Shown here in pieces: positions 25,081 through 43,777 of a DNA stretch of 64,000 bases. The DNA comes from Hoylesella buccalis ATCC 35310 (GTDB taxonomy: Bacteria; Bacteroidota; Bacteroidia; Bacteroidales; Bacteroidaceae). The notes below the pieces were generated by a model that searched no databases, was not told the DNA's origin, and saw only the letters and a list, made by a program, of their open reading frames with translations. Within the stretch, counting starts at the first letter, position 1. Each line of letters opens with the position of its first letter. The translations under genes were made by a program, and so were the position numbers. Location: NCBI RefSeq assembly GCF_000177075.1, contig NZ_ADEG01000016.1, positions 1-64,000 on the forward strand, given 5' to 3'.

Positions 25081-25111
25081 TTGCATGGTTGCTCGAAAAT
25101 GATTATCTTTG
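25081..25111 (+). promoter_or_regulatory. Promoter of the ABC/OLD-like ATPase gene
   Basis: TTG at 25081-25083, a 20-bp spacer and TATCTTTG at 25104-25111. It places transcription start about 15 bases before the ATG at 25134 and excludes the earlier in-frame codon. Confidence 0.65.
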
Positions 25112-25133
25112 CACATATAAAAAAGTATATCTT

Positions 25134-26477
25134 ATGATTGAATCATTAACTGTCACAAACTTTTATTGCTTTAAGGAGCGTACAACAATTCTATTTACGG
25201 CGAAAAAAGAGCGTAATAGAATGTTGGATAATAATTTTTGTGGGTTTACGACTCAAAACAAGATAAATATCTTAAAACTAGTATTTTTATTAGGGAATAA
25301 TGGTGCTGGAAAGAGTAAAATTCTGAGCGCATTTGATGCATTACAGTATCTTATTGGCCAAATTCGTGAACGTAAAGATGAATCTTTGCGTTATAGGCCA
25401 TTTGCTTTTGACGAAGAATGTTTAAACAAGCCATCTGAAATAGAGATAGTATATCATATTAATGATTCACGGTATTTATATAGTATTAAATGGGATAAAT
25501 ATGCTATATATGAGGAGATTTTAGATGAATTACGAACCAAAACTAATATCAATCTATTTCATCGTTGGTATGATAAGGTTAGTGACATCGTAAAAGTTGA
25601 CTTTACAGATAAAATACAAATTAGTGATAATGAGAATTATATTATCAGCAGTTCGTTATTGAAAAATAATTCAGTATTTAGTACTATTATTAAAACGAAT
25701 ATTTCTCATGCGTTGCTAAATTCACATTTGTTATTTTTTATGGAAGGTTTTGAAATTGTTAATTTAGAAGATGTTGATTTAAATGAAGAACTTCCTGATG
25801 ATAAAACAGAAAATAGCAAACAATTAAAAAATGTCATTTGTTCGTTTTTAAAATCTGTAGATACTAATATAATGTCATATGAGAAATTGAAAATTGATGT
25901 AGAGTATCCTGCTGAGTTATTGCAAAAACTAAAGTCATTGTCAGACAAACAAGAAGCAGAGTTAAGAATGCTGTTTAGGATGGATGAGGAAAAACACATT
26001 GTGAATACGTTTCATCGTTTGGATAAAAAAACAGGAAATAGAAGAGGGCGTTTGCCGCTATCAGAACAATCTGATGGCACTAAGGAGATACTTCGATTTT
26101 TAATTGTATTAGATGAGGCTATTAGAAAAGAGAAAACGATAATTTTAGATGATTATAGTAGTGGAGTTCAAAGAAATACGTTGAATCAGCTACTGAAATT
26201 TTTTTTAGGGGCGGCACAAAATGCTCAACTAATAATATCAACTCAAGATTATAGTTTATTGGATTTTGATATTATAAGAAGAGATTCTATCCGTTTTTTG
26301 GTAAAGGATGACATTGCTTCTGCTCATGTTCAATCTATTAATTTATCATTACTGCATAAGAATTCTAGTTTACATCATTATGTAAGCAAAATGAATGTAT
26401 ATGAGCAGTTACCCAAAATGGATGAAGCATTATTTGAAGAACTGTTGAGAATGTACAAAACTATTGCTATGAGATAG
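25134..26477 (+). CDS. ABC/OLD-like AAA ATPase (ATP-binding protein of the AAA_15/AAA_21 type)
   Basis: About 447 residues. It begins MIESLTVTNFYCFKE, the usual first strand of OLD/RecF-like ATPases, followed by Walker A LLGNNGAGKSK. The C-terminal lobe has a signature-like LPLSEQSDGTKE, a Walker B TIILDDY and IISTQDY in the switch position. The middle is long, charged and AT-rich. Family members often act in phage defence (OLD, RloA, AriA types), but no TOPRIM or nuclease domain is visible here and no partner gene follows. Codon use is much more AT-rich than the chromosome, indicating transfer. The function is not assigned. Confidence 0.8.
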   Translation: MIESLTVTNFYCFKERTTILFTAKKERNRMLDNNFCGFTTQNKINILKLVFLLGNNGAGKSKILSAFDALQYLIGQIRERKDESLRYRPFAFDEECLNKPSEIEIVYHINDSRYLYSIKWDKYAIYEEILDELRTKTNINLFHRWYDKVSDIVKVDFTDKIQISDNENYIISSSLLKNNSVFSTIIKTNISHALLNSHLLFFMEGFEIVNLEDVDLNEELPDDKTENSKQLKNVICSFLKSVDTNIMSYEKLKIDVEYPAELLQKLKSLSDKQEAELRMLFRMDEEKHIVNTFHRLDKKTGNRRGRLPLSEQSDGTKEILRFLIVLDEAIRKEKTIILDDYSSGVQRNTLNQLLKFFLGAAQNAQLIISTQDYSLLDFDIIRRDSIRFLVKDDIASAHVQSINLSLLHKNSSLHHYVSKMNVYEQLPKMDEALFEELLRMYKTIAMR

Positions 26478-28047: not shown

Positions 28048-28197
28048 ATGACAGCAAAAACAGGAGAAAAATGTCCAGTAAGTGGTGTTTGGAAAGTTGA
28101 TGGCTTTCCTACAACGACGGCACCTATTGCGAAAGGCAACACAATGCCTCCCTACTGTGGTAAAGCGGTAACTTGGAGACTAATCCAATACGCTTAA
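28048..28197 (+). CDS. Small YjzC-like protein
   Basis: 49 residues. The layout TGEKCPVSGVWKV...IAKGNTMPPYCGKAVTWRL resembles the YjzC pattern (GxKAPxSGxY...KGDxFPP...W), with two cysteines (about residues 9 and 37). The family is small and its function is unknown. It has a strong promoter and a structured leader, and is followed by a hairpin at 28209-28247, so it is likely expressed. A zinc- or redox-linked role for the two cysteines is only a guess. Confidence 0.6.
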   Translation: MTAKTGEKCPVSGVWKVDGFPTTTAPIAKGNTMPPYCGKAVTWRLIQYA

Positions 28198-28204
28198 TTT
28201 TTAA

Positions 28205-29215: not shown

Positions 29216-30538
29216 CTATGGTTGCTGAAATTTATACTTCAATCCATATTCTTTCAGTTTGTTGTACAGTGTCGTACGTCCTATCCCGAGCAGTTCGGCG
29301 GCAACCTTGCGGTTACCGTTCGCCTGCTTCAACGCGCGTAAGACACGCTCCTTGTCTTCCGCATCGCTGCGCAGGGCGAAGCTGACAGGTGAGGTCGCCC
29401 TCGTCACGGCAAGTTCCAGATGCTCTTTCGTGACAAGACCCGTCTGTGCCTGCAACACCGCGCCCATGATTTTCTGACGAAGCTCGCGTACATTGCCCGG
29501 CCACGCATGGGTCAGCAATGTCTTGCGGGCTTCTCCGTCAAATCCGATGACATCACACTCCAGTTCCCGGTTCGCAATTTCACGGAAGAACTCTGCCAGC
29601 GGCATGACGTCCTCCTGACAGTCGCGCAACGGCGGGACGGTTATCTTGAAGTCATGCAAACGGTACAACAAGTCCTGCCGGAAACGCTTTTCATGGACCG
29701 CCTTCTCCAGATCCTCGTTGGTGGCGGCGATGATGCGGACATTGAAACTACGGTCAGATTTGTCACCTACCGGACGGTATCTCCGTTCCTGTATGGCTCG
29801 CAGAAGCATCTGCTGGGTTTCCGGTGCGAGGTTGCCTACCTCGTCCAAGAACAGCGTACCGCCTTCCGCCTCGTGGAAATAACCTTTCTTGGTGCTGTCC
29901 GCACCCGTGAACGCCCCTCTGACGTGTCCGAAGAAAGCCGACGGCGCAAGTTCTTTGGTGAGCGAACCGCAGTCCACAGCCACAAACGGCTTTCCTGCCC
30001 GCTTGCCCTTGTCGTGCAGCAAGTGGGCGATATGCTCCTTGCCCGTGCCGTTCTCCCCGAATATCAGCACGCTCATGTCGGTGGGGGCTACCAGCCTTAT
30101 CCGCTTCATGATGGCTTGGAACGCCGAGCCGTCACGCGAGAACAGGGGCATACGGCTTCGCCCGATATTCCGCTCTTTCAGTATGGTACGGAGCAGAGGC
30201 ACGAGTTTGTCCTCCACGAGTTGTTTGGGTATGTAGTCCAGCGAACCGAGTTTCATGCTTTCAACCGCCGTATGCACTTCGGCATAGTCGGTCATGATGA
30301 TGAACGGCTGCATCCTGCCCTCCTTGCGCATCCAGCGCAGCAGGTCGATACCGTTGCCGTCGGGCAGGCGCAGGTCGGAAACAACGATGTCCCCGTCTGC
30401 GGCTTGTTGCAGATATTTCTTCGCGGTCGAGAGGTGAAAAGCCTGCACGGTACGGAATCCCTTGCGTGCCAGCAGGTTGCAGACAAACTCGCAATACACG
30501 ATGTTGTCCTCCACCACGATGATTTTTGTATTATCCAT
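29216..30538 (-). CDS. rteB: RteB-like sigma-54-dependent response regulator
   Basis: 440 residues: receiver domain with phospho-acceptor Asp55 (VVSDLRLPDGNG), AAA+ domain with Walker A GENGTGKE (161-168), the sigma-54 contact loop GAFTGA (208-213) and LFLDEVGNL, and a C-terminal Fis-type HTH (NGNRKVAAELLGIGRTTLYN). In CTnDOT, RteA-RteB relay the tetracycline signal that leads to rteC expression and excision. Here it ends an operon that starts with a MATE transporter gene. The start overlaps rteA by 8 bases. The gene is visibly more GC-rich than its neighbours. Confidence 0.9.
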   Translation of the reverse strand: MDNTKIIVVEDNIVYCEFVCNLLARKGFRTVQAFHLSTAKKYLQQAADGDIVVSDLRLPDGNGIDLLRWMRKEGRMQPFIIMTDYAEVHTAVESMKLGSLDYIPKQLVEDKLVPLLRTILKERNIGRSRMPLFSRDGSAFQAIMKRIRLVAPTDMSVLIFGENGTGKEHIAHLLHDKGKRAGKPFVAVDCGSLTKELAPSAFFGHVRGAFTGADSTKKGYFHEAEGGTLFLDEVGNLAPETQQMLLRAIQERRYRPVGDKSDRSFNVRIIAATNEDLEKAVHEKRFRQDLLYRLHDFKITVPPLRDCQEDVMPLAEFFREIANRELECDVIGFDGEARKTLLTHAWPGNVRELRQKIMGAVLQAQTGLVTKEHLELAVTRATSPVSFALRSDAEDKERVLRALKQANGNRKVAAELLGIGRTTLYNKLKEYGLKYKFQQP

Positions 30539-32840
30539 TTTCGTATTTTCTCCTTTCTTCTTTTGCCAGCCGGATGATTTCCGAACCCTTATCCAGCACA
30601 GCTTTTACAGCATTATGGATAGCCTCGTTATTTGATGTACCTTTGCTATGAAGCAATTTGTATAGTTCCCTTAACGGTTGGTCTGCACGGAGTATCTCCC
30701 ATGAACTTCGCAGGTGATGTGTCAGGGCGTTCAGTTCCTGAAGGTCTTTCCGTTGCTCCGCATCCCTGACCGCCTGCATTTCCTTTTCGGTTTCCGTTAT
30801 CAGTTTCTCCAGCATGACGGCTTCATTGCCGTAGGACAGCAGGGAGGTGAAATCCGGCTTTTCATTCCGGTTGCCTTTCATGGCGCATTTGTCTGAAACC
30901 TCCATCAGTTCCGATATGGAGAACGGTTTGAGCAGGCAACCGGAGAAACCACGTTCCATAAGTTCCTCCTTGCTGCAACTGCCCGAAGCGGTGGTCACGA
31001 CTACCGGGATAGTCTTTGAATTGCCCACATTGGAGGTGCGCAGCAGTTCCAACAACTCGAAGCCGTTTATATCCGGCATATTCAGGTCAGTAAGCAACAG
31101 GACGTATTCCTTTTTCCGTATCAATTCCATCAGCTCCGCTACATCGGTGCAGATGTCACAGTGTACTCCTTCTTGGGCATACATTTCTTTCAGCATAAGG
31201 AGTAATACCTCGTCATTGTCAATGGCTATCACATCGTGGAATGTATGGTTATGATGAATCCGTATTTGATTTATCTGTTCCGGCAGTTCTTCGGCTGTCT
31301 GCATGGGTATTTCCACTTTGATGTGACTTCCCTTGCCTTTTTCGCTTTTCAGCCGGATTGTACCGCCGAGCATTGTCACAATACGCTGTACGATGGAAAG
31401 TCCCAGACCGAAGCCGTCTTTTGCGGTGGCGTTTGACAGACGTTCAAACGCGCCGAACACCCGTTGCTGTTCCTCATCGGTCATGCCTGTACCCGTATCT
31501 TCGACAATGAGTTTCAGAGCACCGTTATTGTAATCCATTGTCAGAGAGACTCCGCCGTTTTCCGTGAACTTGATGGCGTTCGATAGCAGGTTGTTGCCTA
31601 TTTGCAGGATACGTTCCTTATCGGTCAAGACAACTGTATCCGTTTGATTGGTTATGGTCAGAGCCAGCCCCTTGTTCATGGCGATGGGCGTAAACTCCGT
31701 TTCAAGAATGTGCGTGATTGCCGAAATCCGGCAAGGAGAAATGTTCGGCTGCTCCTTGCCGTTGTCCAGACGGAAGAAACTCAGCAAGGTGTTGAGCATT
31801 TCGCGCATACGGTCAGAAGATTGCCGGATGTTACAAATATAACGCCCGATTCGTTCTATGTCATTCTCTTTTTCCACCAGTCCGGCATAACCCGTTATCG
31901 CTGTCAGCGGCGTGCGCAGTTCATGCGTGATAGTATGCACGGCTTTCTTGCGGGAGGCTATCAGAGCCTCGTTTTGCTCTACCGACTGTTGCAACTGTCC
32001 TATTAAATCAGTCGTTTTCTGTTTGTACCGTTTGATTCGGTTGGCATTACGGTGTATGATGATATATGATATTACCAGCAGAAGGAAGACGAATCCTGTC
32101 AGGCTACCTATCTGCATAAACGACTGTTCCCTCATGGCGGTTATCTCGGCTTCCCGTTTTTGCAGATCGGCTTGCACCTTTTTATCCATCTGGCGTATAA
32201 ATCCGTGCAGTTGCCGGTTAAGTTTCGCGTTTCGTGCCACAAGGTTGTCGGTGTGTTCCGACAGACGGCGGCTTTGCGCCCGTTGCTTGGCTATCATGTC
32301 CCGGTCGAGGGAACGGAGCATTGTTGTGGTCACGGTTGGCTTTGGCTTTTCTTTCTTGCCGAATATGCCGAGAAATCTTTTCCGCTTCGGTTTTTGCGGT
32401 TGTTCCTGCACACTTTTCTGTACGATTACGGGTACTTGACGAGTGATCTTATCATTGATGGCTTGTTGCTGTTCAAGTACCTGCACGATTTGATGCATTT
32501 GTCGTTCCTTATCTTCGAGAAGATAGCGTACACTGTCTATGCGCTCTGTCGGATAAATCGTTTTGAAACGGCATAGCATACTGTCCATTGCCATGCGTTG
32601 ATAATGGTAATGTTCCAAATCTGCATATTCCCACTCCAATACTGTCTCGCCTGATAAAGAAAGTTCAATAAGAAGAACAAATATTTCGTGCGATTCTTGG
32701 CGAAAAGTATCTATATGACGATTCTGAACTTCCAATTTCTCTAAATCGCACCATTCTTTATACCAAATATACATTATGCCGATAACCAATAATGCCATCA
32801 GCAAATAGCCGAGTGAAATTAGATTCTTAATAGATTTCAT
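30531..32840 (-). CDS. rteA: RteA-like hybrid sensor histidine kinase
   Basis: 769 residues: TM helix at about 7-26, a helical sensor region to about 240, a second TM at about 247-263, and a kinase core with phospho-His306 ([13 protein letters not shown]). ATP motifs follow ([29 protein letters not shown]). Next are a receiver domain with Asp585 ([12 protein letters not shown]) and a terminal Hpt-like domain with HHLRSSW (probably His708). This gives an internal phosphorelay that would pass the signal to RteB. It overlaps the Vat-like gene by 4 bases (ATGA), so translation is coupled to a resistance gene. Confidence 0.9.
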
Positions 32841-33463
32841 ACTGCCTGTAATTTATCCCAACGTCCATCTTTCAGATAAGGCAAAAACTCCCGTATCTTA
32901 TCTACCGACCAATCCCACCATTTCAAAGCCTGCATCTGTTCTATTATATCAGGACTGAACCGCTTTCGTATCTCTTTGGCAGGGACACCACCCACAATGG
33001 TATAGGGCGGCACATCTTTCGTCACAACCGCCCTTGTACCAACAATAGCCCCGTCACCGATATGGACACCAGCCATAATAACGGCTTCATAGCCTATCCA
33101 TACGTCATTGCCTATTACGATGTCGCCTTTGTTGTCCCAAGCGGAAGCCACATTTGCCTTATCCAATTCCCAATCTTCATAAAACAGCGGAAATGTGTAA
33201 GTGGATAAAGATTTTAGGGTATGGTTGGCACAGTTGAACAGAAATTTTACGCCGCAAGCAATAGAACAGAACTTTCCAATTATCAGCCGTTCATGGTTAA
33301 TGGGATAATGATACAATACGTTATTTTGCTCAAACAGACACGGGTCTGAAACAAAATCATTGTAAATGGTATAGTCGCCTATTTCGATAGACGGGTCTTT
33401 TACGACAGCATTCAAATAAACGGTTTGCGTGTCACCTTTACGGGGATATATCTTGTTCATCAT
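32837..33463 (-). CDS. Vat/CatB-type xenobiotic O-acetyltransferase
   Basis: 208 residues, left-handed beta-helix hexapeptide fold. [14 protein letters not shown], the catalytic His81 in [26 protein letters not shown], and [12 protein letters not shown] with the terminal WWDW motif define the XAT group. The YHYP segment and the NxANH context are closer to streptogramin A acetyltransferases (Vat) than to CatB, but chloramphenicol as substrate is not excluded. It uses acetyl-CoA in the cytoplasm. It lies between the MATE transporter gene and rteA in one operon. Confidence 0.82.
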
Positions 33464-33475
33464 AAATTTCAGTTC

Positions 33476-34765
33476 TTAGTATTGTTTATATTTAAGATAA
33501 ATGACGGATTGTGTACCAAGCAGTATCACATATAAGTATTCCACTGCCCAATATGCCGCTAACGTGACATTACAATAACCTAATCCCCATAAGCAGAACA
33601 GATAAGCAATAGTAGTTATCACCTGAAAAATGAATACCGTCCGTGTCGCTCCCGTTCCTGTTGTAGCATTCAGATAGACGTAACCGGGTAGTGCAAAGAA
33701 GTAATTCAATAGCATAACAAGAAAAGGCGGCCATGCAAGCTGTACGATAGCGGGATTTTCCGTATAAGCCCCTATAATGTGCTGGTGAAAGAACAACGCA
33801 AAAGTAATCAGTGGAATGCCTGTCGCATATCCTAAACGGATAATTTTATGGCAAAGCGGAAAAACTTGTTTCTTTTCACCTGCTCCAATCAGGTTACTCA
33901 CCAAAGAACCGGTGACACCTGCCAATGCATTGACGATAACGGAAAACAGTGCGGAAACACTTCTTACAATGTTCGATACAGCCAACTCCGTTTCTCCCAA
34001 GCGTTCGATAGCCACGAAGAACAGAAACCAAATGGCTACACTTGTAAAGAACTGGAGCATACTCCATACAGAGATAGAAAACACCTCTTTCAATACCGTT
34101 ATATCAATACGCCAGTATAAGCCATACGCTTTTTTATCAATGTGCCGAAACATATATGCAGCCAATACAGCCAGCGAACACATTTCGGCAGATGAAGAAG
34201 CGATAGCCGCTCCCGATATACCCATATCGAAGCCGAAAATCAGGAGCCAGTTCAGCGGAATGTTTACCAGTACGGCAGTGAAAGCTGCCATGTTCAGAGC
34301 TTTTGTCTGTGTAATGCCTACCAAAAACGAGCGTAAGGCAAGGAACGGGAAAGAGAACAACAATCCCCAAATACGCCAATCCAAATAGCGGATAACCGCA
34401 TTATAGACATCATCCGAAGTTATCAGATGTTTCAACAGAACGGGAGAAAATATCTTGGATAGCATACAGAGGAGTACCGCCAGTATCAGCAAGAAAAACA
34501 ATCCCTGAAAGAACGTTTTTCCCGTTTCTGCATACCACTGTTCTCCGTTTCGGCGGGCAATTATTACTTGCAACCCCAAGCTGAATCCGAAGCCGAGCAT
34601 ATAAATTGCCAAGAACCATATTCCGGCAAGGGCAGATGCGCCCAATTCCACATCACCCACATGCCCTAAAAACAAAGCATCGGTAATATTTATCAGTTGT
34701 TCGATAAGGATGCTCATCATTACAGGAAAAGCGATGAGCCAGATTTTCTTATAGGTATAATTCAT
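33476..34765 (-). CDS. MATE family multidrug efflux transporter
   Basis: About 429 residues with twelve predicted hydrophobic helices. The N-terminal YKKIWLIAFPVMMSILIEQL and LGHVGDVELGASALA segments match MATE proteins, which export cationic drugs using Na+ or H+ gradients. The frame opens 16 codons earlier, but the Met before NYTYKK fits the family start. It heads the transcript that continues into the acetyltransferase, rteA and rteB, in the place taken by tetQ in CTnDOT. The substrate is unknown. Confidence 0.85.
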   Translation of the reverse strand: MNYTYKKIWLIAFPVMMSILIEQLINITDALFLGHVGDVELGASALAGIWFLAIYMLGFGFSLGLQVIIARRNGEQWYAETGKTFFQGLFFLLILAVLLCMLSKIFSPVLLKHLITSDDVYNAVIRYLDWRIWGLLFSFPFLALRSFLVGITQTKALNMAAFTAVLVNIPLNWLLIFGFDMGISGAAIASSSAEMCSLAVLAAYMFRHIDKKAYGLYWRIDITVLKEVFSISVWSMLQFFTSVAIWFLFFVAIERLGETELAVSNIVRSVSALFSVIVNALAGVTGSLVSNLIGAGEKKQVFPLCHKIIRLGYATGIPLITFALFFHQHIIGAYTENPAIVQLAWPPFLVMLLNYFFALPGYVYLNATTGTGATRTVFIFQVITTIAYLFCLWGLGYCNVTLAAYWAVEYLYVILLGTQSVIYLKYKQY

Positions 34766-34813
34766 TTGTTCAAACCAATATGATACAATACATCCTGCCG
34801 CTTTAAGCAGCAC

Positions 34814-34998
34814 GACAATCTTATAGATTTATAATAAGGGATAATGACAAAACAATAACAGGCAAACTTAAAACATAAGCCTGTCTATTGCTGAATAGCA
34901 ATAATTGGAAGTGCTATTCGTTGAGCGTAGCTATATGCACAACTGCCATTTCATATTGTTGAACAACTATTTATTTTTCTGTTAGTTCTGCAAAGATA
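34814..34998 (-). promoter_or_regulatory. Attenuator-like leader of the MATE-vat-rteA-rteB operon
   Basis: A minus-strand -7 box TATCTTTG (plus 34991-34998) starts a leader of about 220 nt. It encodes a 7-residue peptide (MKWQLCI, 34931-34954) followed by overlapping hairpins. Hairpin A pairs GAATAGCA with TGCTATTC (34893-34919) and hairpin B pairs TATTGCT with AGCAATA (34886-34903); they share bases and exclude each other. Hairpin C (CAGGC/GCCTG, 34859-34883) follows. This layout is what is expected for drug-responsive translational attenuation, as described for tetQ in CTnDOT. Confidence 0.6.
34931..34954 (-). CDS. Leader peptide MKWQLCI
   Basis: Eight codons including TAG, lying about 37 nt after the -7 box and immediately before the mutually exclusive hairpins. 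Ribosome stalling here could choose between hairpins A and B. Inferred from layout only. Confidence 0.45.
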   Translation of the reverse strand: MKWQLCI

Positions 34999-35045: not shown

Positions 35046-35894
35046 CTAACACTCCATATCATCCTCATTCATCCGCTTAACAAGATTATCTATCAGATGA
35101 TGAAGATATGCCGTCCGGTCTTTTCTCTCTTTCATGGCTATATATGAAGCGTAATAATCCCCTAAATCAATGTGGAATATTGTACTAAGGAAATTCATCA
35201 TTTCTTTAATTTCCACGTTGCCATTGTTTATGTCGCCCGAAGATACAAGAGAATATCCCAGTTCGATAAGATATGACTTTTTGCCTGTGAAACGGAACGG
35301 GTATTTGAAGCATCTTTGTAGATTATCTTCTATCTGATTATTAGTTCCCAGTTTCACCAATCGTTTATTCAGATAGATGCGCAGCATTTCATTGGCTATG
35401 ATTTTAGCCACCTTATAATCATATCCTGTTGAGAAATTTGGGTCTTTATCGAATTGTGCGCTATCGGTACATAATCGTAAATCCGCTTTTCCACGAACAA
35501 AATAATATTCATCATACACAGTGGAATGTGAACGGTAGTATTGATAAAAGTCCAAATTGCGATTGAAGAAATAGGTCAGATTATCCAGTTCCCGATTGAT
35601 ATAATTCCTAATCACTTCATCGCTACCATTAGGACATTGTGTTTCAATCTTGTATATCTTATAGAAGAATAGCAACCGACCGAGTATTTCCGGTTTCTGA
35701 GTTTTGAAAAATAAAATTTCGTCCTCTTTGGTTGGAAATATATAGGTTTGTATTTTCATCCTCAAATCATTGAGAGCTGTTTGCAGCCTATGTACTATTG
35801 AAAGAGAAACATCAATAATATTATAGCCGTAGAGGTCGATTTCCGAAATATCGACCTCTATTTGGGCTAATATATTATTAGCCAACTCTTTCAT
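35046..35894 (-). CDS. rteC: RteC-like regulator of element excision
   Basis: 282 residues. Segments such as FPTKEDEILFFKTQKPEILG, YYFVRGKADLRLC, and the FSTGYDYKVAKIIANEML region followed by IYLNKRL match RteC proteins of CTnDOT-type elements, which activate the excision operon by binding inverted repeats upstream of it. In CTnDOT rteC lies downstream of rteB as a separate unit; here it is upstream of the rteA/B operon and overlaps the GNAT gene by 4 bases (ATGA). This places it under the control of an AraC-GyrI operon. Confidence 0.85.
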   Translation of the reverse strand: MKELANNILAQIEVDISEIDLYGYNIIDVSLSIVHRLQTALNDLRMKIQTYIFPTKEDEILFFKTQKPEILGRLLFFYKIYKIETQCPNGSDEVIRNYINRELDNLTYFFNRNLDFYQYYRSHSTVYDEYYFVRGKADLRLCTDSAQFDKDPNFSTGYDYKVAKIIANEMLRIYLNKRLVKLGTNNQIEDNLQRCFKYPFRFTGKKSYLIELGYSLVSSGDINNGNVEIKEMMNFLSTIFHIDLGDYYASYIAMKERKDRTAYLHHLIDNLVKRMNEDDMEC

Positions 35895-37609: not shown

Positions 37610-38248
37610 CTATATTTTCATTTGGTTGATTTCTTTCTGAACCCCATCTAAAAAGCGGGAAGCGTGCGCCCCGTCCATTTGCGTGTGGTGGAACTGGAAA
37701 GAAACGGTGAGCGTCGTTTTCATCAGGCGACGTTTGTATTTGCCCCAAATAAGAAACGGATTATTAAAAATGCCGCTATACATCCCGACAGCCCCGTCTA
37801 TTTCATATTGTGCCAAGGCGGAAGTTCCGATAACCATGCTTTCCGTCAAGTCGTGATTGACGCAACTTTCAGCCACTTGTTTGGTTAGTTGCAGATAGTG
37901 TTGATTAAATAAAGATAAATCATCACAGAAAGGAACATCACACGAACTTACCTCGCCCTTTCTGTTGGCGACAATGGTGTTTACTGCAATGGTATCGTAC
38001 TGCATCAGTTTGTCGTTTACGGGCAGCAGATAAAATTCTTTCACGCTCCTTGCGGCTTTGCCGATGCACCAGCACATCAACATATTAAACTTCATGCCCG
38101 ATTTCCGACTGATTTTCACAAGGCGTGACACGTTGAGTGTCTTAAAGAACGTCACCATTGGCATGGGTGCGTTCATCCACATTTCAAAGGCGTATGCCCG
38201 GCTAGTTTCTTGGGGATTTACTTCTTTCATACTTAATGCTATTTTCAT
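37610..38248 (-). CDS. Chloramphenicol acetyltransferase, CatA type
   Basis: 212 residues, the length of classical trimeric CAT. The active-site motif HHTQMDG (187-193; His188 and Asp192 in the expected spacing) and the flanking FQF and ASRFLDGVQ match CatA enzymes, which acetylate the 3-hydroxyl of chloramphenicol using acetyl-CoA. A TACTTTTG box (minus, 38265-38272) lies 16 bases upstream. It is flanked by two AraC-type regulator genes on the same strand. The activity is inferred. Confidence 0.85.
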   Translation of the reverse strand: MKIALSMKEVNPQETSRAYAFEMWMNAPMPMVTFFKTLNVSRLVKISRKSGMKFNMLMCWCIGKAARSVKEFYLLPVNDKLMQYDTIAVNTIVANRKGEVSSCDVPFCDDLSLFNQHYLQLTKQVAESCVNHDLTESMVIGTSALAQYEIDGAVGMYSGIFNNPFLIWGKYKRRLMKTTLTVSFQFHHTQMDGAHASRFLDGVQKEINQMKI

Positions 38249-42167: not shown

Positions 42168-42548
42168 TCAATTATACCATAGGTTGCTGCCCTTGCCATA
42201 GGAAACAAACAATGTGACCGGATTCCCTTTCTTGGTGGCGCAGATTTCATTTATTACGAACCGCCTGAACAAAAGGGTCCCTTTGCTACATATTTTGAAA
42301 GCGATGGCTATAATCATTTCAAAATTATACACATCATAACTGATACCATCGGGTTGCCTGATATATCGCATTGTTTCGGCTTCATTCAGTTCCTTGTTCT
42401 TGTAGATTGCTCGTATCGCCTTGCGGATGTCGTACGAGAATACCCCGAACATGTCGGCTATCTCAAACTTTGTCATCCATATAGGGGCAGTCGGCACTAT
42501 AACTACGCCCGTTTCACTGATTGTTATTATTCCTCTGTTCATAATCAA
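42168..42548 (-). CDS. Mobile-element hypothetical protein after the integrase
   Basis: 126 residues. PIWMTKFEIADMFGVFSYDI, then RKAIRAIYKNKELNEAET suggests an HTH-like N-terminal region; no family name is recognised. It overlaps the integrase stop by 4 bases, so it is translated with it. Proteins of this kind follow integrase genes in several Bacteroides elements. Role unknown. Confidence 0.6.
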   Translation of the reverse strand: MIMNRGIITISETGVVIVPTAPIWMTKFEIADMFGVFSYDIRKAIRAIYKNKELNEAETMRYIRQPDGISYDVYNFEMIIAIAFKICSKGTLLFRRFVINEICATKKGNPVTLFVSYGKGSNLWYN

Positions 42549-43777
42549 AGATTTTTTGATAAGGCACTTTTCACATTCATCATATCTTTGAAGATGGAAG
42601 AATCCAGCACACGGGCATAGTGCTGCGTCATTTTTATGTTGGAATGACCGAGCATTTTCGCCACATTCTCAATGCTTACACCATTGGCGAGGCACACAGA
42701 GGTCGCATACGAGTGCCGGGCTGTGTGCGTGGTCAAGCACTTTGATATGCCACACAAATCGGCTATCTCTTTCAGGTAGCTGTTCATCTTCTGATTGCAG
42801 GGGACAGGGAGCAATACATTTTTCTTTTGGCAAGTAGGATGGCTTTTGTATTTCTCCAAAATCTGCATCGGAATATCGAGCAAAGGGATGTTGCACATAT
42901 TCTTCGTCTTTTGGCGAGGCTTGCGAATCCAATAATTGCCGTTGTTGTCTTGAACGATATGTTCGGCAGATAGCTGCTGTACATCAATGAACGCCAACCC
43001 AGTGAACGCAGCAAAGGTGAAGACATCACGCACAACCGTAATCCTGTCCAAAGAAAACTCCTTGTTGTAGATTGTGAGCAGCTCATCCATAGTTAGGAAC
43101 TCACGGATAACTTCCTTCTCGTGGAACTTGATACCGATAAACGGGTCTTTGGTTATCCATTCGTTGGCAAGTGCGAGATTGGTTATCTTCTTCAGGCACT
43201 TCATATAACGGATGACCGTATTTTGTTGGCACTCCTTTTCCGTCTTGAGATAAAATTCAAAAGCACGTACTAGTTCACCATTGATTTCCGACAAGGGCAA
43301 ATCCTCCTTGTCATATTTCAGTTTGATAAGTTCTGCTAGATAGCGTTTGCAGCTTTCATAACGGCGGACAGTAATCAGCGCATAGTCCTTGCCCACAAGT
43401 TCACGGCATTGGTCGTTATGCTCCTGTATGGTTTGGATGAGTGTGCGGACTTCCTTCACTTCTTCGTTAGCTCCAAAGAACTTTTCTTGCAAGATTCTGG
43501 CTGTGATGGAGTGGTTCCTCTCTTCCAGTTCATCGAACAGCTTGCGCAACTTGATTTTGGCTTGCTCGATGTAGAGATTGAGTTCACAAGCCTTGCGGCT
43601 CTTGCCTTTGGCGCACTCCTTCGCTTGATTCCACAGGGCAGGCTCAATGCTCATGCGGATGTTGTTTTCCACTCGCGCACCATTCACGGTGATGCGCATA
43701 CACACGGAGGCTTCCCCGTTTTTCAGCAGTTTGGCTTTCTTGATGAAGAAAAGCACATTGAATGAGTTTCGTTTCAT
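42545..43777 (-). CDS. Tyrosine recombinase/integrase, CTnDOT-type
   Basis: 410 residues. An arm-binding N terminus and a core-binding domain (about 110-215) precede the catalytic domain with HTARHS (His351, Arg354), LGH (His378) and the nucleophile Tyr387 in MTQHYARV. The usual first arginine is replaced: the motif reads TGLAFIDV (Ala262), a known feature of IntDOT relatives. It lies 245 bases from the 3' end of tRNA-Phe and reads away from it, the usual arrangement at an element end. Confidence 0.93.
   Translation of the reverse strand: MKRNSFNVLFFIKKAKLLKNGEASVCMRITVNGARVENNIRMSIEPALWNQAKECAKGKSRKACELNLYIEQAKIKLRKLFDELEERNHSITARILQEKFFGANEEVKEVRTLIQTIQEHNDQCRELVGKDYALITVRRYESCKRYLAELIKLKYDKEDLPLSEINGELVRAFEFYLKTEKECQQNTVIRYMKCLKKITNLALANEWITKDPFIGIKFHEKEVIREFLTMDELLTIYNKEFSLDRITVVRDVFTFAAFTGLAFIDVQQLSAEHIVQDNNGNYWIRKPRQKTKNMCNIPLLDIPMQILEKYKSHPTCQKKNVLLPVPCNQKMNSYLKEIADLCGISKCLTTHTARHSYATSVCLANGVSIENVAKMLGHSNIKMTQHYARVLDSSIFKDMMNVKSALSKNL

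Follow-up and report, generated by a model that had tools for sequence, protein, structure and literature searches.

The window, the 64,000-nucleotide stretch of DNA analysed here, carries a run of minus-strand genes in the order catA-like, AraC-GyrI, GNAT-YoaP, rteC, leader, MATE, Vat-like, rteA and rteB. The leader and its flanking genes comprise the following features:

37610-38248, minus strand: catA-like gene, first in the gene run
35046-35894, minus strand: RteC (PF09357, 1.3e-76), upstream of the leader promoter
34991-34998, minus strand: Bacteroides-type -7 promoter box TATCTTTG, recognised by sequence; TAnnTTTG in relatives
34951-34966, minus strand: 5' arm of stem P1 (Hp1-like), UUGUUCAACAAUAUGA, overlapping the leader start codon; from duplex and permutation tests
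34931-34954, minus strand: leader ORF MKWQLCI-stop (ATG AAA TGG CAG TTG TGC ATA TAG)
34943-34950, minus strand: 5' arm of stem P2, AAUGGCAG, on leader codons 2-4; from the consensus fold of 11 near leaders
34893-34919, minus strand: hairpin A, GAAUAGC...GCUAUUC, where 48/49 leaders have a stem of 6 bp or more
34853-34890, minus strand: hairpin B, around ACAGGC...GCCUGU, with compensatory changes; from the near-group consensus fold
34843-34850, minus strand: 3' arm of P2, UUGUCAUU, conserved between variable flanks; from the consensus fold
34766-34783, minus strand: 3' arm of P1 (Hp8-like), UCAUAUUGGUUUGAACAA, 18 nt ending at the MATE ATG and pairing with 34966-34951
33476-34765, minus strand: MATE family efflux transporter (Pfam/NCBIfam; PF01554, 1.8e-42)
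32837-33463, minus strand: Vat/CatB-like xenobiotic acetyltransferase, from profile matches and alignment to Vat(D)
30531-32840, minus strand: RteA-like hybrid histidine kinase, from domain search
29216-30538, minus strand: RteB-like sigma-54 response regulator, from domain search

Gene order, spacing and domain matches agree with a preliminary description of this DNA in placing a MATE transporter and a Vat-type gene at the head of an rteA-rteB operon; the span it gave, 33476-34998, covers the leader and MATE, with Vat, rteA and rteB falling outside. MATE and Vat are separated by 12 nt, Vat runs 4 nt into rteA and rteA runs 8 nt into rteB, so that MATE, Vat, rteA and rteB likely form a single transcript. 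The transporter has MatE domains and passes the family cut-off. Its start is the ATG at 34765 (MNYTYKK), which relatives keep, and this conservation rules out the GTG at 34813 as an alternative. The Vat-like protein is a hexapeptide acetyltransferase of the Vat/CatB type whose nearest solved structure is Vat(D) (1.2e-49). When aligned with Vat(D) and Vat(A), the protein retains the active-site NxANH, whose histidine is catalytic in Vat enzymes; hexapeptide repeats are present (PF00132), and the score of 230 bits lies under the NCBI cut-off of 300 for any named Vat. RteA is 69-80% identical to its counterparts in operons headed by tetQ or by other genes, and RteB is 85-96% identical to the RteB of other loci whose RteA is at least 69% identical. 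An Rfam scan of the window returned two tRNAs only. The catA-like gene at 37610-38248 encodes a family 2 acetyltransferase resembling CatA, which scores 364 bits in NCBIfam and passes the cut-off; the AraC-GNAT-rteC genes separate it from the leader in the window, and at L008, L011-L013, L015, L034, L037, L078, L097 and L098 a CatA-like gene lies directly before the leader, its stop about 60 nt from the leader ATG.

These genes belong to an element with an integrase (42545-43777), two HTH_17 excisionase-like genes, DUF3408, MobA and rteC. No Tra genes were recognised among the window proteins scanned, and the TraG genes of this genome lie on other contigs; because no tra genes accompany the regulators in the window, we do not class the element as a complete CTnDOT-type ICE. 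A search for a tRNA-Phe att duplication found no repeat. Apart from the window operon, the same genome holds a tetQ-rteA-rteB operon close to a full-length traG (G000:C79:95127-97415 and 80848-83337), so that two differently headed rteA-rteB operons coexist in it. Rather than driving excision or transfer of their own element, the window RteA and RteB might act on this tetQ element. Beside the element lies an AAA_21 ATPase (25089-26477, plus strand) resembling AbiLi of PADLOC (2e-41), and a gene-poor stretch holds a small Cys-containing ORF (MTAKTGEKCPVSGVWKVDGFPTTTAPIAKGNTMPPYCGKAVTWRLIQYA; 28050-28198, plus strand).

Seven loci with tetQ-rteA (L059-L065), including G000:C79 in the window's own genome, have tetQ where the window has MATE-Vat, which bears out the earlier reading that these genes occupy the tetQ position. 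In the RteA tree the window groups with L011 and L012 (both MATE-Vat), beside L044 (a hydrolase head), and tetQ heads lie on both sides. This nesting of the MATE head among tetQ heads indicates that the operon head has been exchanged on rteA-rteB. The leader itself goes with MATE and not with rteAB: a leader-MATE(-Vat) block stands 2-20 nt before rteC in L006, L009, L014 and L032, skipping RteA/B, 41-88 nt before a sigma-54 regulator in L027 and L028, and elsewhere with no rteA, rteC or sigma-54 regulator behind it. Since rteC of CTnDOT, when expressed in the absence of RteA/B, can drive excision genes (PMC1976400), the leader-MATE-rteC form could, by analogy, be a shortened circuit. Excerpts of PMC6907783 describe the tetQ site of CTnDOT-like ICEs as a hotspot of resistance-gene insertion and substitution, and among the tetQ-operon substitutions in those excerpts no MATE-Vat head or leader is named. 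A third head type, comprising a META-domain lipoprotein and an alpha/beta hydrolase, occurs at L058 (G206:C40), where RteA and RteB are 80% and 96% identical to the window's and another MATE lies further upstream.

The promoter and seven-codon peptide of the preliminary description are both present and conserved in relatives. In 47/49 unique leaders a TAnnTTTG box stands 36-46 nt before the leader ATG; in the window, the leader ORF begins 36 nt after TATCTTTG. All 30 loci fetched by MATE protein similarity alone have the leader peptide upstream of MATE. When 393 whole genomes sampled from the order were searched with the MATE protein only, MK[xQ][L/V]CI-stop was seen to precede 8/8 MATE genes that share at least 50% identity and keep their 5' end intact, and 0/21 genes of 46% identity or less; the forms found there are MKWQLCI, MKWQVCI, MKHQLCI and MKLCI. 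Changes among leader peptides are synonymous, plus a Leu/Val exchange, and the Ile codon is always AUA. Variant peptides at L033 (MKCQLCI, Trp to Cys), L108 (MKHQLCI, Trp to His) and L105 (MKLCI, Trp-Gln missing) show that the peptide can do without Trp-Gln and that its fixed core is [L/V]-C-I-stop. Peptide-pattern searches matched 7 places in 393 genomes and 33 in 399 genomes, and a reversed control pattern matched nowhere in either set. Every intact match precedes the same MATE family except at a contig end (L097) or at broken loci, where MATE is deleted to a scar before Vat (L098), lost (L101) or internally deleted (L078). We considered non-MATE targets and rejected them, as these exceptions are decay or a contig end. 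Leader, MATE and Vat also occur together on a Phocaeicola plasmid record; viral contigs yielded no leader peptide. Across this sample the peptide is a real, conserved element.

The window leader folds better than 200/200 shuffles (z -4.3), and its core is a long-range stem, P1, that covers the MATE start. Cognate P1 arms pair more strongly than swapped arms in 18 representative leaders (0/20,000 permutations) and in the 8 most divergent leaders only (7/40,320), counts that are not clean probabilities, since the leaders share descent; one arm of the stem is also under coding constraint. Divergent leaders (L036, L042, L082 and L108) rebuild P1 from different bases, as in the L036 replacement pair UUAUUCAACUU:AAGUUGAAUAA. 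This pattern identifies P1 as the putative sequestering structure, coevolving across divergent leaders. In a second pairing, P2, leader codons 2-4 of the near group pair with UUGYCAUU about 95 nt downstream, and the far group pairs ACUCUGU with ACAGAGU; P2 is conserved and shows little covariation. Both P1 (34966-34951 with 34783-34766) and P2 (34950-34943 with 34850-34843) were overlooked in the preliminary description, which drew a switch between two mutually exclusive hairpins. One of these, 34893-34919, is retained in 48/49 leaders; its supposed competitor at 34886-34903 (CUAUUCAGCAAUAG) is exact in just 19/44 near relatives and missing from the divergent group. The two-hairpin switch as drawn is thus not supported, and the coevolving core is P1 on the MATE start. 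The broader idea of an attenuator-like leader is upheld, as the leader is conserved with its own peptide and a coevolving stem over that start.

We simulated a ribosome on 16 leaders. Predicted mean access to the MATE start rises from 0.28 in the free leader to 0.50 with codon 3 blocked and 0.46 with codon 5 blocked, and a ribosome parked at codon 3 is predicted to open the start in 16/16 leaders. A block at codon 7 gives a modest predicted access of 0.38, though the last three residues are the most conserved, and blocking hairpin A or B gives 0.27, with no opening.

The conserved peptide, the coevolving stem, the operon layout and the exchangeable head are all read from the sequence; ribosome stalling, the inducing drug, a link to RteA/B and any excision are inferred. 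We think it likely that the leader, about 200 nt long, acts as a translational attenuator on the same plan as the CTnDOT tetQ leader, in which a drug-stalled ribosome opens the MATE start. Without drug, ribosomes would complete MKWQLCI and depart; the freed leader ORF region would then pair with the stretch before the MATE start, and MATE would be poorly translated, as would Vat, RteA and RteB. With a drug that targets the ribosome, translation would stall on the leader ORF. That ORF itself forms the 5' side of the sequestering stem, so a ribosome halted there would keep the stem open, allowing MATE to be translated and raising Vat and RteA/RteB too. The leader peptide probably causes drug-dependent ribosome stalling and controls an efflux-pump gene in gut Bacteroidales.

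The single Trp and single Cys of the peptide and its invariant AUA Ile codon, giving an AUA-UAG end, could instead point to a leader that senses amino-acid shortage or slow decoding, with an uncharged-tRNA stall opening the MATE start. We consider this improbable, because Trp gives way to Cys in L033 and to His in L108, Trp-Gln is gone from L105, and what the leader controls is an efflux pump accompanied by acetyltransferases, not biosynthesis. Transcription attenuation through alternative terminator and antiterminator structures, which the two-hairpin switch implied, would fit the strong stem of hairpin B and the U-rich stretch that follows it in the window. However, a terminator scan did not call hairpin B, the competing hairpin 34886-34903 is unconserved, and the coevolving element sits on the MATE start, which leaves this reading about as doubtful as starvation sensing. 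Reinitiation has been proposed as a general role of leader peptides (excerpts of PMC4833913), and the leader might by this route simply boost constitutive MATE expression with no sensing. With some 140-180 nt of structured RNA between the leader stop and MATE, and the MATE start hidden by a coevolving stem, we regard this as very unlikely.

If the leader is a drug-sensing translational attenuator, its inducer is probably not tetracycline, because the peptide differs from the MRQ of tetQ; the earlier suggestion of another drug is a natural inference from this unrelated peptide. Most likely the inducer is a ribosome drug handled by the window-type MATE. Given the Vat and CatA-like genes that accompany leader-MATE, our best single guess is a peptidyl-transferase-centre drug of the streptogramin A or phenicol type. 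Several loci keep leader-MATE without an adjoining Vat, so Vat is not necessarily a pointer to the drug; a drug class named from the Vat/CatA cargo is a guess, and MATE is the constant partner. Our more tentative proposal, which we would not favour over its negation, is that MK[xQ][L/V]CI-stop is a new arrest peptide for one ribosome drug met in the gut, a portable sensor placed before rteA-rteB, rteC or a sigma-54 regulator, and that this drug, not tetracycline, triggers transfer programmes.

In the textbook example of a drug spreading its own resistance, tetracycline induces the transfer of CTnDOT. A MATE leader at the usual place of tetQ suggests that other drugs could switch on the control genes of a mobile element. 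A portable, peptide-coded sensor in place of tetQ would, if true, allow other drugs likewise to spread resistance in gut Bacteroidales, in some elements directly through RteC. With peptide and stem now defined, the inducing drug can be sought by one reporter panel or by toeprinting.

A literature search for MATE with rteA, or for a Bacteroides MATE leader, found nothing specific. A close regulatory relative is the CTnDOT cascade tetQ-rteA-rteB-rteC (PMC1976400), which shares RteA, RteB and RteC homologues and a resistance gene heading rteA-rteB; it differs in that the window has a MATE-Vat head, rteC just upstream of the head promoter and no recognised tra. Excerpts of PMC5418344 cover ribosome-drug-sensing leaders on transporter or ABC genes, namely the vmlR, lmo0919 and fexA attenuators, of which vmlR and lmo0919 differ in acting on transcription and in Firmicutes; the same excerpts class the CTnDOT tetQ leader as a translational attenuator. 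The tetQ leaders that we fetched contain ATGCGGCAGTAA (MRQ-stop), and GCAGUAAUAAUAUAC pairs with GUAUAUUAUUGC before tetQ; the upstream region of L062 is rearranged. A 2005 study of the CTnDOT tetQ leader (Wang, Rotman, Shoemaker and Salyers; J Bacteriol 187:2673) reportedly describes a three-residue peptide and elements Hp1-Hp8. Both leaders lie ahead of rteA-rteB, with a short ORF between promoter and resistance gene; in both, a long-range stem has its 5' arm overlapped by this ORF and its 3' arm just before the resistance-gene start. The likeness between the two is one of layout and does not extend to sequence: the peptides are MK[xQ][L/V]CI and MRQ, with no common sequence seen, the distance from start codon to start codon is 189 nt in the MATE leader and 126 nt in the tetQ leader, and the targets are MATE-Vat and a ribosomal protection protein. 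On this comparison, the MATE leader probably operates as the tetQ attenuator does but is no copy of it.
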